Shown here one piece after another: positions 13,642 through 25,857 of a stretch of DNA of 26,115 nucleotides. The translations under genes and the position numbers were made by a program. Position 1 is the first letter of the stretch. Each line of letters starts with the position of its first letter. Under the pieces are notes generated by a model. That model had not been told where the DNA came from. It did no database searches and saw nothing but the letters and a program-made list of their open reading frames with translations. The stretch is from positions 1-26,115 of the IMG/VR virus record IMGVR_UViG_3300032083_001852, one strand, 5' to 3'. The DNA comes from a virus.

Positions 13642-13718
13642 TGGCCCCCTTGGCAGGACTCGAACCTGCAACCCTGGTGGTAGAAACACCATGCTCTATC
13701 CAGTTGAGCTACAAGGAG
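13642..13718 (-). tRNA. tRNA-Arg (anticodon UCU), CCA encoded
   Basis: On the minus strand the cloverleaf is complete. The acceptor CTCCTTG (13718-13712) pairs with CAAGGGG (13652-13646) with one T-G wobble. The D-arm is GCTC/GAGC, the anticodon stem TGGTG/CACCA with loop TTTCTAC (anticodon TCT), the variable loop GGGTT, and the T-arm GCAGG/CCTGC with loop TTCGAGT. The discriminator is G and an encoded CCA ends at 13642. It reads AGA, a rare codon in many enteric-type hosts. It lies inside the early operon, not at an end, so it looks like a translational supplement rather than an att site. Confidence 0.93.
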
Positions 13719-17552: not shown

Positions 17553-17660
17553 TTCTTCGCCAGTTACGGCGAGGTGGTAGTTTAGCATTAAATCAGCGGC
17601 CCGTTTCGCCGGATCGGTGGGCCAGGCCGATGAGGGGCGCGACGAACGCCACCGGCAGAT

Positions 17661-18962
17661 TTAGACGTTTTTGTATTTTTCGGTTATCTGGCGTTGCCTT
17701 ATTGCCTGGCTTTTTGTCGGGGCCAACCCCAAATATTTGCAGGTATGGTCGTTTTTCAAGATCGTTAATGCAAACCGCTTCCAGGAAGTCACCATCGAGT
17801 TATGGGTTCTAAGCTGATCCAAGTGGTCAGGTGGGCGTTTGATAATTACACGGCGCAGACTGTTTCCGCCATGAGGCGTTACGCCGTTTAACGCGAACTT
17901 TACTCCATTCGAAGCCATGTCCTCGATAATCTCTTCTGGGAGTCCACGGCCCACCCTCCCCCAGAACTTAATCGACTGGATGAACCGTTGCTTAAAATTT
18001 TCAGAGACCTCCTTTGGCAGCGTGTCTAACAGAAACTTGGTAAACGACTTCCATGTGTGACCTTCTGGAAGAGAAAAGCTCCTGTAGCTTAGTTGCTTGC
18101 CGTAGGTGGCAATAAAATTAGCCCCTTGGACTCTAGCGCACAATTTCGCCCATGTTGATGGGTCAATAACTCGATACAGAGATAGGCTGGATTTTGATTC
18201 GCTCATAAACGGCGATGCTACTCGCATAGACCCAACCGGGACACCGGCACGGTAAAAAACATCGTAGAGCCGGTTATATTCCCATTCAAACTTGCTATTC
18301 GCCGTCCATATGTCGTCCGTTCTCCAGTCAAATATTGGGTAACAGTTGAACGTATGCGCGGTGTTTTTCTTTGTCCAGTTCTTCCCGCCGATCGTTACCT
18401 TTCTGTCATTCATTATCGCTCGGAAACGGTTAAGACTTTCGTCGGCCCTAATCCCAATAAGGTTTGCACATGGCTTGCCTTGTGAGTACCACTCTGCGAA
18501 CCCATCCCAGAATTCGTCATAAGGCATATTTTCTTCAAAGAAGTCGAACTCGTGGTTATCTATCGTCACGATATAATCGTCGTTCGGTATTGGCCTAATC
18601 CACCTGGCTTTATCGTCCTCGCCCCAGCATCGCCACTCAACAGCGTAACTGCTGACCGTGCACGGCAGAGTGATAGGAAGGCAGCACCAGTAAACATCGA
18701 GCAGGTCAAGATTATCGTCGATGATCTTTTTCATGAATGAAAGCGAATCTTCGTAATTGGCTTCGTTATCGAGGATTTGAACGCCGATTTTTTCGGTTAT
18801 CTGGTTCTCCCTCATGTACATAAGTACGAGATTCAACATCACGCCAGAGTCTTTCCCACCTGAAAACGACAGGTATATCCGCTCGAAATTATTAAAAATA
18901 AAATCTATTCGATCCATTGCAGCATCAAATACATTCAGGTCTTTATTGTAGATTCGCTTCAT
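17661..18962 (-). CDS. IbrA-like PAPS-reductase-family protein (DUF3440)
   Basis: The protein has 433 residues from ATG 18962, which shares ATGA with the upstream gene. It is an ATP-pyrophosphatase-fold protein with the P-loop SGGKDSG at 34-40, GIRADES at 170-176 and YPIFDWRTDDIW at 208-219, the motifs that define the adenylyl/phosphosulfate-reductase superfamily branch used by IbrA and DndC. The C-terminus contains SWKRFALTILKNDHTCKYLG, a DUF3440 module. IbrA with IbrB is known to activate eib genes in E. coli; biochemistry is unknown. It is the last gene of the four-gene cassette and appears intact. Confidence 0.87.
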   Translation of the reverse strand: MKRIYNKDLNVFDAAMDRIDFIFNNFERIYLSFSGGKDSGVMLNLVLMYMRENQITEKIGVQILDNEANYEDSLSFMKKIIDDNLDLLDVYWCCLPITLPCTVSSYAVEWRCWGEDDKARWIRPIPNDDYIVTIDNHEFDFFEENMPYDEFWDGFAEWYSQGKPCANLIGIRADESLNRFRAIMNDRKVTIGGKNWTKKNTAHTFNCYPIFDWRTDDIWTANSKFEWEYNRLYDVFYRAGVPVGSMRVASPFMSESKSSLSLYRVIDPSTWAKLCARVQGANFIATYGKQLSYRSFSLPEGHTWKSFTKFLLDTLPKEVSENFKQRFIQSIKFWGRVGRGLPEEIIEDMASNGVKFALNGVTPHGGNSLRRVIIKRPPDHLDQLRTHNSMVTSWKRFALTILKNDHTCKYLGLAPTKSQAIRQRQITEKYKNV

Positions 18963-19270
18963 TTTATTAACCTCATTTGTTTGCTGGGCTTTTTCATTCC
19001 TGATTTTAACGGCTCGTACCATTTAGACCTTTTTGGCCGGAATCCCAGGGAGTGCAGGTTTAAGTCGTTTTTTAATATGGCTATAGCGACCGCCTTCCAT
19101 GATGGTGCGCGCCTTGAATCCATGAGCTTTTTCGGAACTTCGTCTGGAATGCCATCAGAATAACATCTCTCGATCCATGTATTCTCGTACTCCCTCACCC
19201 GATCGGCGACTGTTTTCCCAGATCGAAATGGCTCTATCTGCTTCTCTATTCGCCAGTGTTCTTTGCTCAT
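18959..19270 (-). CDS. small protein with stand-alone IbrA C-terminal (ILKND) module
   Basis: The protein has 103 residues. Residues 57-80 (SWKAVAIAILKNDLNLHSLG, then FRPK) align directly with the C-terminal module of the IbrA-like neighbour. The N-terminal VREYENTWIERCYSDGIPDE is also a pattern of DUF3440-type proteins. The P-loop domain is absent. The best start, ATG 19270, lies 116 nt inside the upstream gene, an unusually long overlap, with a GGGGG stretch about 10 nt upstream. It is translationally coupled to ibrA-like by ATGA. It may be a partner or regulatory subunit of the IbrA-like protein. Confidence 0.75.
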   Translation of the reverse strand: MSKEHWRIEKQIEPFRSGKTVADRVREYENTWIERCYSDGIPDEVPKKLMDSRRAPSWKAVAIAILKNDLNLHSLGFRPKRSKWYEPLKSGMKKPSKQMRLIK

Positions 19271-19562
19271 CAGTCAAATACCCCCACGCCTCCCTGGTTA
19301 TGTCCTCTGGACAAGCCAGCGCCAACGCTGTCGCAGCGTGACCAATCCACGCTTTTTTATTAAGGTTTTGATCGGTCAGCGCATTTTCGCAGCTGTTAGG
19401 CCACTCGCAGATGACGCGAACCATGAATCGCCCGTACTTTTTATGGTCAGATGTAAAGGCAATTGCCTTTTTTAAATAGACTTTGCGGTTGGCAACTTCG
19501 CCCCACATATTCGCCTCAATTTCTTCCCATTCATGAAACGGGTGATAAATCCGTTTATTCAT
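19155..19562 (-). CDS. conserved unknown protein of the IbrA/IbrB cassette
   Basis: The protein has 135 residues from ATG 19562, which overlaps the upstream gene by 8 nt. The opening KRIYHPFHEWEEIEANMWGE and the core KAWIGHAATALALACPEDIT, then REAWGYLTDEQRTLANREAD, are well-structured and conserved-looking, with a central SCENALT turn. No catalytic motif is recognised. It lies between the EctC/ParB fusion and the ILKND gene, so it probably belongs to the same pathway. The 3' end overlaps the next gene by 116 nt in another frame. Confidence 0.75.
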   Translation of the reverse strand: MNKRIYHPFHEWEEIEANMWGEVANRKVYLKKAIAFTSDHKKYGRFMVRVICEWPNSCENALTDQNLNKKAWIGHAATALALACPEDITREAWGYLTDEQRTLANREADRAISIWENSRRSGEGVREYMDREMLF

Positions 19563-20454
19563 TTTCAGCTTCCCAGCTTTCGGAAAAATCACGGTTGCTG
19601 AACAATGCCGCAACACCGGTTATCTGTTTCATCCTTAAAAGCTCGTCGGCGCTCATTCCGATATGCTTACAAATCCACCTGTCGCCTTTGCCCATTTCTA
19701 CCAGCTCGGCAACTATCGTGCTCATAAGGTCAATGTTGTGCGACCCTCGAGCACGGTTGTGGCGGATAGTAGAAGCCATCCTGTCGCCGATAGATTTATC
19801 GAGCACGACCACCGGCAGCAGCCCTTTTTCACGCTCCCTAATGCGGTCGCTATTTTTGATTGTTAAATACCGATGAAATCCGTCAACTACAACGTAGACT
19901 TCGTTTTCTTCGTCATAACAAGTAACAACCGGCTGCGTATACCCATCTTCCCAAATAGAGGTTTCTAATAGCGCCATTTCTGGCGGGGCTACCGAATTTG
20001 GGTTGTAGTCATTAGCGACTACTTTTTCAATAGGAACGGGGATGACGTTATAAGTCGGTGAATTTGATCGCGGCGACGGGTAAGAGCCGTCTGGCGAGTG
20101 CAACTCTCCGCCGACCAATGGCGGGTTGAACACGCATATCAACTCTACTTCTTCAATAGCCTGGAAGTAATGATCATCATTATTGTCAAGGATGTAGGTT
20201 GTCCCTGCTCCTATCGCGTGCTCTTCGCCCGTGGCGGCATCGGTCAAAATTCCATTGCCAGAAATGCAGTAGCACGTCTCTATATGGTTCTTGTAATGCC
20301 AATGCTGCTTTTCCCCTGGTGGGATTATTGTTCTGGTCATGGAGTACCCGGCGTTATCGCTAGCAACAACCAACCGACTGCTGACAAATCCGCCATTGGG
20401 GCAGCTAACCTGCCTTTCTGTTCCTTCAATATCAATATTTTTTACTACTTTCAT
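19555..20454 (-). CDS. EctC-like cupin fused to IbrB-type ParB domain
   Basis: The protein has 299 residues. Residues 1-125 are an ectoine-synthase-like cupin: HYKNHIETCYCISGNG (53-68), TTYILDNNDDHYFQA (85-99) and CVFNPPLVGGELHSPDGSYP (107-126). In EctC of Paenibacillus lautus the iron ligands are Glu57, Tyr85 and His93; here Glu59, Tyr87 and His95 sit at the same spacing. Residues about 135-299 are an IbrB/ParB-type domain with VVDGFHRYL (189-197), TIRHNRARGSHN (229-240) and MSADELLRMKQITGVAALFS (267-286). A GAGG ribosome-binding site precedes ATG 20454. The fusion of these two folds is unusual; ectoine genes ectA and ectB are absent. Substrate unknown. Confidence 0.85.
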   Translation of the reverse strand: MKVVKNIDIEGTERQVSCPNGGFVSSRLVVASDNAGYSMTRTIIPPGEKQHWHYKNHIETCYCISGNGILTDAATGEEHAIGAGTTYILDNNDDHYFQAIEEVELICVFNPPLVGGELHSPDGSYPSPRSNSPTYNVIPVPIEKVVANDYNPNSVAPPEMALLETSIWEDGYTQPVVTCYDEENEVYVVVDGFHRYLTIKNSDRIREREKGLLPVVVLDKSIGDRMASTIRHNRARGSHNIDLMSTIVAELVEMGKGDRWICKHIGMSADELLRMKQITGVAALFSNRDFSESWEAENE

Positions 20455-20587
20455 CGTCGTTTCCTCATTTAGTTAAATATCCCGCTTACCAGCTTGCGGG
20501 GACGCTATTTAGATGCGCCGGTTATGCGCTAACTGCTCTACTCTTGGTGCGCGTCCAGCAGGCAACTCCCACCGGCCCAAGTGTTCA
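20455..20587 (-). other. 133-bp leader before the cassette; nothing certain
   Basis: This spacer holds no convincing gene. A 16-residue frame (20538-20588, starting in a TAATG junction with the upstream gene, peptide MNTWAGGSCLLDAHQE) could be a minigene. A hairpin CCCGC/GCGGG near 20481-20500 lacks a clear T-tract. No good promoter was found, so the cassette is probably transcribed from the early promoter. Confidence 0.35.
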
Positions 20588-24534: not shown

Positions 24535-24674
24535 TAGAGGCTGTCAGTAAGTTCATGCTTTGATTAGCAAGACGTGATAGTTGGGCTTGTGTGCATAACG
24601 ATAAATCGAGGCACCGATGAACGGACACAGCAACGAAGCAATATCAGCAACTAACCCAAATGAGGAAAACGACT

Positions 24675-25262
24675 ATGAGTATTTCAAAGAAATTATTGGC
24701 ACTACAGACCGAGCTGAAAGCCCCGAAGGATGCTTACAACAGTTTCGGGAAGTACAGCTATCGCAGCAACGAGAGCATCCTGATCGCCCTGAAACCTCTG
24801 TTGCAGAATCATGGGGTTATGATGATTGTCAGCGACTCGATTAAGGAAGTCGGCGGTCGCGTCTATGTTGAAGTGACCACGACGCTTACCTGCACCGAGA
24901 CAAACGAATCAGTATCCTGCACCGCTTCTGCTCGTGAGCCTGAATCCCGCAAGGGCATGGATGAAAGCCAGATTACCGGCGCTGCATCCAGCTACGCTCG
25001 AAAATACTGTTTGTCGGCAATGTTCGCCATCGATGACAACAAAGACGCTGATTCGATGAAACCGGCTACGCTGACCCAGGACGACCTCGATAAGCTGGTC
25101 GAAGGCATCGGCAAGGCTGTGGCGATGGACGAGCTTAAAAAGCTCTACACGGACGCTGTGAAGCTCTGTAAGGAAGCCGGAGACACTGAGGCTCACCAAG
25201 CCATTGTTATGGCTAAAGATGCTCAGAAATCCATTATTGAGTCGGCTGCTAAAGATGAATGA
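24675..25262 (+). CDS. erf: Erf-family single-strand annealing recombinase
   Basis: The protein has 195 residues (P22 Erf has 204) from ATG 24675, which has GAGGAAAAC upstream; the frame also opens at 24660. Family motifs are KLLALQTELKAPKDAYNSFG, KYSYRSNESILIALKPLL, and the signature QITGAASSYARKYCLSAMFA (99-118), followed by the acidic DDNKDADS. Such proteins form rings and anneal complementary single strands, for example when circularising phage DNA. The C-terminal ~70 residues are helical and charged. It overlaps the exonuclease by 8 nt, forming an exonuclease/annealing pair. Confidence 0.9.
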   Translation: MSISKKLLALQTELKAPKDAYNSFGKYSYRSNESILIALKPLLQNHGVMMIVSDSIKEVGGRVYVEVTTTLTCTETNESVSCTASAREPESRKGMDESQITGAASSYARKYCLSAMFAIDDNKDADSMKPATLTQDDLDKLVEGIGKAVAMDELKKLYTDAVKLCKEAGDTEAHQAIVMAKDAQKSIIESAAKDE

Positions 25263-25857
25263 GCAGGGCACGGATGAATGGTTCGAGGCGCGGTTGGGTC
25301 ATGCCACCGCGTCCAACTTCCACAAAATCCTGGCTAAAGGGGCCGGGAAAACTCGGGCCGCTTACCTACAGCAACTGGTTGTGGAGCGACTGACCGGGAA
25401 GAAGGCGGACAGCTACTCAAACGCGCACATGGATCGCGGCACCGAGCAAGAACCATTTGCTCGCATGGCATACGAAGCGATTAGCGGCAATATGGTTGAT
25501 GAGGTAGGGTTTATCCCTATCGAGGGGAAGATGATAGGCTGTTCGCCGGATGGCCTGGTTGACGATAACGGCGGCTGCGAAATCAAATCGCGGCTCCCTC
25601 ACTTGCAGCTTGAGGTGATCGACAAAGGCGGCTACCCATCGGCTACAGTGGCTCAGATACAGGGGTCACTGTGGGTCACAGGGCGCGAATGGTGGGATTA
25701 TGTCAGCTACTCGCCAGACCTGCCTGAGCACCTGCAAACGTACATCTTCCGAGTCGAGCGGGACGAGAAGTACATCAAAACTCTTGCCGAAGAAGTCGAT
25801 AAGTTTCTGGCCGAAGTTGAGGCCGAAGTCGAAAAGTGGAGGAATTACAAATGCTAA
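25255..25857 (+). CDS. YqaJ/lambda-exonuclease-like recombinase
   Basis: The protein has 200 residues from ATG 25255; a longer frame would lie inside erf. It is a PD-(D/E)XK 5'-3' exonuclease that would make single strands for Erf. MDRGTEQEPFARMAYE (Glu 64 and 66), then GCSPDGLVDD (Asp 99) and CEIKSR (Glu 109, Lys 111) are the catalytic core, and AQIQGSLWVTG (133-143) carries the conserved Gln. WF near the N-terminus (DEWFEARLGHATASNF) is typical of YqaJ proteins. It overlaps the next gene by 7 nt. Confidence 0.9.
   Translation: MNEQGTDEWFEARLGHATASNFHKILAKGAGKTRAAYLQQLVVERLTGKKADSYSNAHMDRGTEQEPFARMAYEAISGNMVDEVGFIPIEGKMIGCSPDGLVDDNGGCEIKSRLPHLQLEVIDKGGYPSATVAQIQGSLWVTGREWWDYVSYSPDLPEHLQTYIFRVERDEKYIKTLAEEVDKFLAEVEAEVEKWRNYKC

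Follow-up and report, generated by a model that had tools for sequence, protein, structure and literature searches.

An EctC-like cupin fused to an IbrB-type ParB domain in a phage IbrA-IbrB module whose slot is shared with GNAT acetyltransferases

Introduction

Gene pairs that place a PAPS-reductase/DUF3440 protein beside a ParB-like protein are known from Escherichia coli as IbrA/IbrB of strain ECOR-9 and YbdN/YbdM of K-12 (PMC9068703). Annotations commonly label IbrA a PAPS reductase, and its gene is listed under sulfur metabolism (e.g., PMC10434257, PMC10232697). DndB and DndC pair a ParB-superfamily protein with a PP-loop protein in DNA phosphorothioation (PMC10853773), and in the DpdA/DpdB pair of 7-deazaguanine DNA modification a ParB-superfamily protein is likewise the partner (PMC12839542), so ParB-family proteins accompany DNA-modifying enzymes. 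EctC, the ectoine synthase, is an iron-dependent cupin that binds the acetamide oxygen on iron and then removes water; a residue that packs onto the substrate, Trp21, is present in every one of 437 EctC sequences (PMC6344544). The cupin and ParB domains have already met in phages: GenBank entries KJ567043 gp104 (Mycobacterium phage Gaia) and MN313256 (Pseudoalteromonas phage XCL1123) carry the name "ectoine synthase/ParB multidomain protein". Here we describe a viral locus that encodes such a protein and compare it with these systems.

Results and Discussion

The Fusion Gene and Its Cassette

The DNA analyzed, which we call the window, is a stretch of 26,115 nucleotides (IMG/VR record IMGVR_UViG_3300032083_001852, positions 1 to 26,115). 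An initial annotation had proposed that one frame joins an EctC-like cupin to an IbrB-type ParB domain, and this is borne out by 299 uninterrupted codons that run on the minus strand from an ATG at 20454 to the stop at 19555-19557 with zero internal stops. The annotation had correctly placed a frame at 19555-20454 and left out its strand; the plus-strand translation of the same positions is interrupted by stops. The features of the locus are as follows.

17601 to 20501, minus strand: whole cassette (fusion-C-D-IbrA), 98.7% identical to contig L001 over 2,905 bp
19555 to 20454, minus strand: EctC-IbrB fusion protein, 299 aa, from a single open frame and from fold and family tests
20074 to 20454, minus strand: EctC-like cupin domain, residues 1-127 (PF06339, Foldseek, VIA)
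20278-20280, 20194-20196 and 20170-20172, minus strand: codons of the iron ligands Glu59, Tyr87 and His95, conserved in the family
19558 to 20061, minus strand: IbrB-type ParB/Srx domain with a helical, HTH-like tail, residues 132-299 (phrog_2159, PDB profile matches)
19870-19884, minus strand: DGFHR motif; DGxHR is invariant in IbrB
19155 to 19562, minus strand: small protein C, 135 aa, ATG at 19562, conserved in all 23 fusion clusters
18959 to 19270, minus strand: small protein D, 103 aa, conserved beside C (PF11922 at 1e-4 over residues 37-82, just under the cutoff)
17661 to 18962, minus strand: IbrA, a PP-loop ATP-pyrophosphatase-type protein with DUF3440 (PF11922, 1e-56; PF01507, 2e-9)
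18846-18863, minus strand: SGGKDS motif of IbrA; GKDS is invariant in 25 homologues

The second contig, L001, carries the cassette at the DNA identity given above, and relatives of the fusion are encoded by 148 viral contigs in one IMG/VR scan. A near-identical second copy and many homologues eliminate a frameshift or assembly accident as the source of the fusion frame. In a tblastn search of 50,697 phage records, the full-length protein was found in the Mycobacterium phages Gaia and Nebkiss, and both halves were found as two adjacent genes in XCL1123. The initial annotation regarded the architecture as one without a described phage example; this claim of novelty falls, since the GenBank names show that the architecture is on record, and it is widespread. 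Gaia gp104, which is 65.7% identical to the window protein over its full length, and the XCL1123 proteins share with the window the same two domains and the same neighbors IbrA, C, and D. In both phages ibrA comes first, whereas in the window it comes last; the order fusion-C-D-IbrA occurs only in the window and L001. When 14 kb of the window was compared by megablast with the same 50,697 records, no match was obtained. Literature searches of freely accessible journal articles returned no paper on the EctC-IbrB protein or on the exchangeable slot described below, and we found no biochemical or mass-spectrometric results for any IbrAB; as far as the searched literature goes, the four-gene module and its slot are apparently undescribed.

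Elsewhere the window carries a tRNA-Arg gene (anticodon tct) at 13642-13718 on the minus strand and, at 24660-25857 on the plus strand, a recombination pair made up of an ERF-family annealing protein and then a YqaJ-type exonuclease.

The Cupin Domain

Residues 1-127 match PF06339 with E = 5e-42 (143.5 bits against a cutoff of 27), and the domain passes the NCBIfam ectoine synthase model PRK13290 (142.9 bits against a cutoff of 128). In a two-domain AF2 model, the cupin has a mean pLDDT of about 90, and the list of PDB comparisons made with this model covers the cupin only. The fold is that of EctC, as the initial annotation had supposed: the model matches EctC 5bxx with a Foldseek E-value of 1.5e-14 and a VIA Z of 19.7 (rmsd 1.1, 113 residues aligned), while other cupins score Z 13.3 or less in VIA. 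The spacing of the putative iron ligands, also pointed out in that annotation, holds as well, with Glu59, Tyr87, and His95 aligning with EctC Glu57, Tyr85, and His93. All three are invariant across 76 unique fused cupins. Among 123 unique phage cupins (189 in total), the iron ligands and the equivalents of Ser23, Arg25, Thr40, Tyr52, Glu115, and His117 are near-invariant, and the Phe106 equivalent is nearly as well kept; fold, ligands, and these residues are thus common to the phage cupins and EctC (5bxx, 5onm).

What sets the phage cupins apart from EctC is the lack of Trp21, the linkage to IbrB, and the lack of ectA and ectB in the record. The Trp21 equivalent is Phe23 in the window cupin, and none of the 189 phage cupins has a Trp within residues 16-33. 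By comparison, a survey of 297 actinobacterial genomes found Trp21 in 30 of the 30 best cellular EctC proteins and a Trp nearby in nine of ten divergent second EctC copies. Solitary cellular EctC proteins resemble the phage cupins in having the EctC site without ectAB (PMC5924519) but retain a Trp, which in some is displaced by two positions (PMC6344544 and the nine of ten divergent copies). One actinobacterial genome, G134 (loci L434 and L435), encodes one EctC and two divergent copies with a "DW.NGTS" signature and a shifted Trp; a further match lies below the cutoff. Asn38 was also considered as a discriminating residue and was rejected, because His stands there in SaEctC and in 30/30 cellular EctC.

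These observations bear on a possible role in auxiliary metabolism, in which the infected host would supply a precursor and the cupin would turn it into ectoine or a related solute for that host. The cupin does pass the ectoine synthase cutoff, expression of the solitary EctC from Pseudomonas syringae in an ectC mutant gave ectoine (PMC5924519), and EctC shows side reactions with glutamine (PMC4795551). However, the Trp21Ala variant keeps 9.7% of the activity in the P. lautus enzyme (PMC6344544) or 26% in the S. alaskensis enzyme (PMC4795551), a residual activity that leaves some room for ectoine synthesis, and the residue is lost throughout the phage cupins. Models for EctA and EctB drew no match from the 26-kb record, which may be a fragment; the initial annotation was right on this point. 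Nor would ectoine synthesis explain the tight linkage with IbrB, IbrA, C, and D. With Trp21 gone and the cupin tied to the module, a role as an osmolyte gene is very unlikely. The loss of Trp21 in all 189 proteins suggests to us that these cupins probably act on something other than the ectoine precursor; judged from the residues, a different and probably larger substrate is more likely than ectoine synthesis. In a quick tree the phage cupins cluster together, with fused and split forms intermixed, at a support of 0.65 that is too weak for a claim on their origin.

The IbrB Domain

The AF2 model of the ParB half is of low confidence (pLDDT about 40-80), so the orientation of the domains was left unused and this half was tested by profile. 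PHROG family phrog_2159 (ParB-like) matches residues 77-298 with 1.8e-76, and Pfam ParB_N stays below its cutoff. A profile of 19 IbrB sequences finds Noc (4e-6), ParB (8e-5), SbnI (0.003), and, marginally, SerK (0.06) in the PDB. The invariant DGxHR of IbrB is kinase-like and aligns with DGVHRY of the serine kinase SbnI, unlike the GERR of Noc and ParB. A partition ParB (CTPase) can be eliminated, because DGxHR stands in place of the GERR-type nucleotide motif. The secondary structure of the AF2 model predicts an HTH-like helical tail at the end of IbrB. The initial annotation had tied an EctC-family metal-type cupin to a ParB/Srx-fold domain, and this part of its interpretation stands.

An HTH-like tail raises the question of whether IbrAB is a gene-expression switch, with IbrB as a DNA-binding co-activator, the cupin as a sensor of a ligand (iron or an amide metabolite), and IbrA making or removing that ligand. 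IbrAB is named a co-activator of prophage genes after work on E. coli ECOR-9, as far as the account of Sandt 2002 given in PMC10434257 goes, and the K-12 homologues ybdNM adjoin the regulator CitR and are repressed by it (PMC9068703). The cupin, however, keeps a near-invariant full catalytic set (equivalents of Glu57, Tyr85, His93, Tyr52, Thr40, Glu115, and His117), which exceeds the needs of a sensor, and the GNAT acetyltransferase that takes the same slot in other loci is an enzyme and no sensor. We consider such a switch unlikely. The ECOR-9 and K-12 pairs, which we compared by their published descriptions, have no cupin, C, or D described.

IbrA and the Small Proteins

The probable start of IbrA is Met21 of a 453-aa frame, with GAGG upstream at 18962. 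The S-x-GKDS motif, the PP-loop of ATP pyrophosphatases, is kept in 25 of 25 aligned IbrA sequences, and no cysteine is invariant among them. A true PAPS reductase can be ruled out: the catalytic C-terminal Cys is not conserved across the 25 sequences, and the PP-loop is retained. Profile relatives in the PDB (FAD synthase, CysD, PAPS reductase, and LarE) are all weak.

In the PADLOC defense library IbrA gives weak matches only, to DndC (6e-7, the best), BrxP, and SspD. DndC is, like IbrA, a PP-loop protein, but its iron-sulfur cysteine cluster has no conserved counterpart in IbrA, and the module is without DndD/DndE or a TGT-type gene, in which it differs from the Dnd and Dpd systems. Membership in Dnd phosphorothioation was rejected on the weak similarity and the missing cysteines. 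A known defense system was likewise rejected, as the weak DndC-like matches fall to IbrA alone.

Instead of DNA, a counter-defense module would target a nucleotide or signal molecule of the host, modifying or consuming it, and the enzyme in the slot would decide which molecule. Nucleotide degradation has been proposed for ParB superfamily proteins (PMC10853773), and the loci are phage-borne and often close to replication or packaging genes. Set against this are the lack of PADLOC defense families beyond the weak likenesses of IbrA, and the helical, HTH-like tail of IbrB, which suggests nucleic acid as the target; we regard this reading as rather unlikely.

Protein C starts within the fusion gene, overlapping its end by 8 nt. 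It is predicted to be all-helical (AF2 pLDDT 93.5). No convincing solved relative was found (best sequence E 0.12; best Foldseek E 2.3; VIA Z ≤3), which is no proof of a new fold. The window copy matches no Pfam, PHROG, or PADLOC family, and only to that extent can C be called a new family. Protein D resembles the C-terminal part of DUF3440. The C and D genes (18959-19562, minus strand) share 116 nt read in different frames; similar overlaps of about 40-130 nt recur among relatives and exceed what is usual for coupled genes.

An Exchangeable Slot

From the IMG/VR scan, 80 of the 148 contigs were retrieved, 77 with the fusion and three with the halves as separate adjacent genes. An IbrA-like gene is present in 78 of these 80 loci, and IbrA, the EctC-IbrB protein, C (∼140 aa), and D (∼105 aa) are found in all 23 fusion clusters, truncations aside. 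IbrB loci lacking a cupin were drawn from GTDB genomes and IMG/VR with several chosen queries. Every locus was scored by profiles for IbrA, cupin, ParB, C, D, and GNAT, and merging near-identical IbrB sequences left 148 clusters.

Every cupin-bearing cluster has the cupin inside the module on the same strand, either fused to IbrB or encoded beside it, and the association with the module is kept in both forms. With A for IbrA, E for the cupin, and B for IbrB, the orders are A-E~B-C-D, A-E-B-C-D, C-D-A-E-B, A-E-C-D-B, and truncated forms. The cupin co-occurs with C in 32 of 34 clusters and with D in 31 of 34. In six other loci, IbrB carries C as a C-terminal fusion; these fusions and the split and fused cupin-IbrB forms argue for physical partners.

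Some loci without a cupin have a GNAT acetyltransferase, placed either between the IbrA and IbrB genes or immediately ahead of IbrA (Pfam 2.7e-7 in L206 and 4.8e-6 in L127), and a class I methyltransferase-like protein occupies the slot in L175 (7.5e-6) and, with weaker matches, in L171 and L179; several of the GNAT and methyltransferase assignments lie below Pfam cutoffs. Some Bacteroidales members of the GNAT cluster (L136 and L154) have no Pfam GNAT match. Cupin and GNAT occur together in none of 34 clusters, against GNAT in 20 of 107 that lack the cupin (Fisher p = 0.004). We note that these counts are to be read as associations and not as rates, because the clusters are phylogenetically non-independent and the sampling followed chosen queries. 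Tailoring is not essential, as 46 of the 148 clusters consist of A-B alone, without cupin. By annotation, a cultured Bacillus phage has the order ParB-PAPS reductase-methyltransferase-ParB and Arthrobacter phage Wheelbite the order ParB-PAPS reductase-ParB-methyltransferase; these annotated genes give no Pfam methyltransferase match.

The slot could also be a cargo insertion point, where the cupin, the GNAT, and the methyltransferase are unrelated passengers. The cassette is 98.7% identical to that of L001 and other matching pieces are 89-94% identical, so the 2.9-kb cassette seems to travel as a unit, and the slot of L173 holds a PD-(D/E)XK-like protein. Yet no cupin lies outside the module, fusion to IbrB is frequent, and the cupin keeps company with C and D at the frequencies given above. 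To us the passenger explanation appears improbable. A slot that holds a cupin, a GNAT, or, less surely, a methyltransferase points instead to a shared chemical modification system, which probably acts on DNA. The initial annotation, written from the window alone, had not mentioned this slot, the split cupin/ParB pairs, the IbrA partner, the two further small genes, or the missing Trp21.

Several further arrangements were noted. ParB-PAPSR-ParB clusters (L440, L441, and L443) occur in cultured mycobacteriophages (Athena) and in Arthrobacter and Bacillus phages; the second ParB is of a different, C-terminally extended type, and in Athena and Wheelbite the cluster is close to the terminase gene. 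In many alphaproteobacterial loci (L084 and L091-L127, e.g., L094) and in a Streptococcus phage, the gene immediately upstream of ibrA encodes a SNF2-type helicase, and in Gaia a gene annotated as helicase has the same place. A Mycobacterium abscessus prophage has cysteine-dioxygenase-like and PAPS reductase-like proteins together (PMC8092301), which may be another cupin-IbrA pair.

Proposed Role of the Module

The reading we favor, which we put forward tentatively, is that the module has a role in nucleic-acid modification, with interchangeable tailoring enzymes on an ATP-driven, IbrB-targeted core. The fusion protein would be the targeting-plus-tailoring subunit of the phage IbrA-IbrB module. 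IbrA may activate a carbonyl or phosphate group with ATP by PP-loop adenylation, and the IbrB half may bind the nucleic acid and use ATP through its ParB/Srx site. The EctC-like cupin, with iron presumably bound, would then finish the product by holding an acetamide or amide group on the metal and removing water, as in EctC. Its substrate would be other than that of EctC and probably bulkier, for example a nucleotide or a modified base. The finishing step of sister modules would fall to the GNAT acetyltransferase and probably sometimes to a methyltransferase, C and D would be accessory proteins, and the phage would presumably benefit. The initial annotation had suggested that the protein could make or sense a small molecule and act on nucleic acid or ATP, a hypothesis with which these observations are compatible.

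Amines are the substrates of GNAT enzymes and of many methyltransferases. A more specific and speculative version of the modification role, which we think improbable as it stands but a little less so than mere passengers in the slot, is that IbrA and IbrB attach a group bearing an amide or amine to a DNA base and the cupin closes it into an ectoine-like cyclic amidine, while in sister modules that group would receive an acetyl or methyl instead. If true, this would be a phage DNA hypermodification pathway with an EctC-derived iron cupin.

Conclusions

IbrAB-like pairs are present in hundreds of phages, prophages, and bacteria, including E. coli K-12 with YbdNM, and reviews regard solitary EctC proteins as an unsettled case. 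One slot taken by either an EctC cupin or a GNAT, and probably by a methyltransferase too, indicates the kind of chemistry to seek. The cultured phages Gaia and XCL1123 make both the IbrAB question and the solitary-EctC question directly testable.
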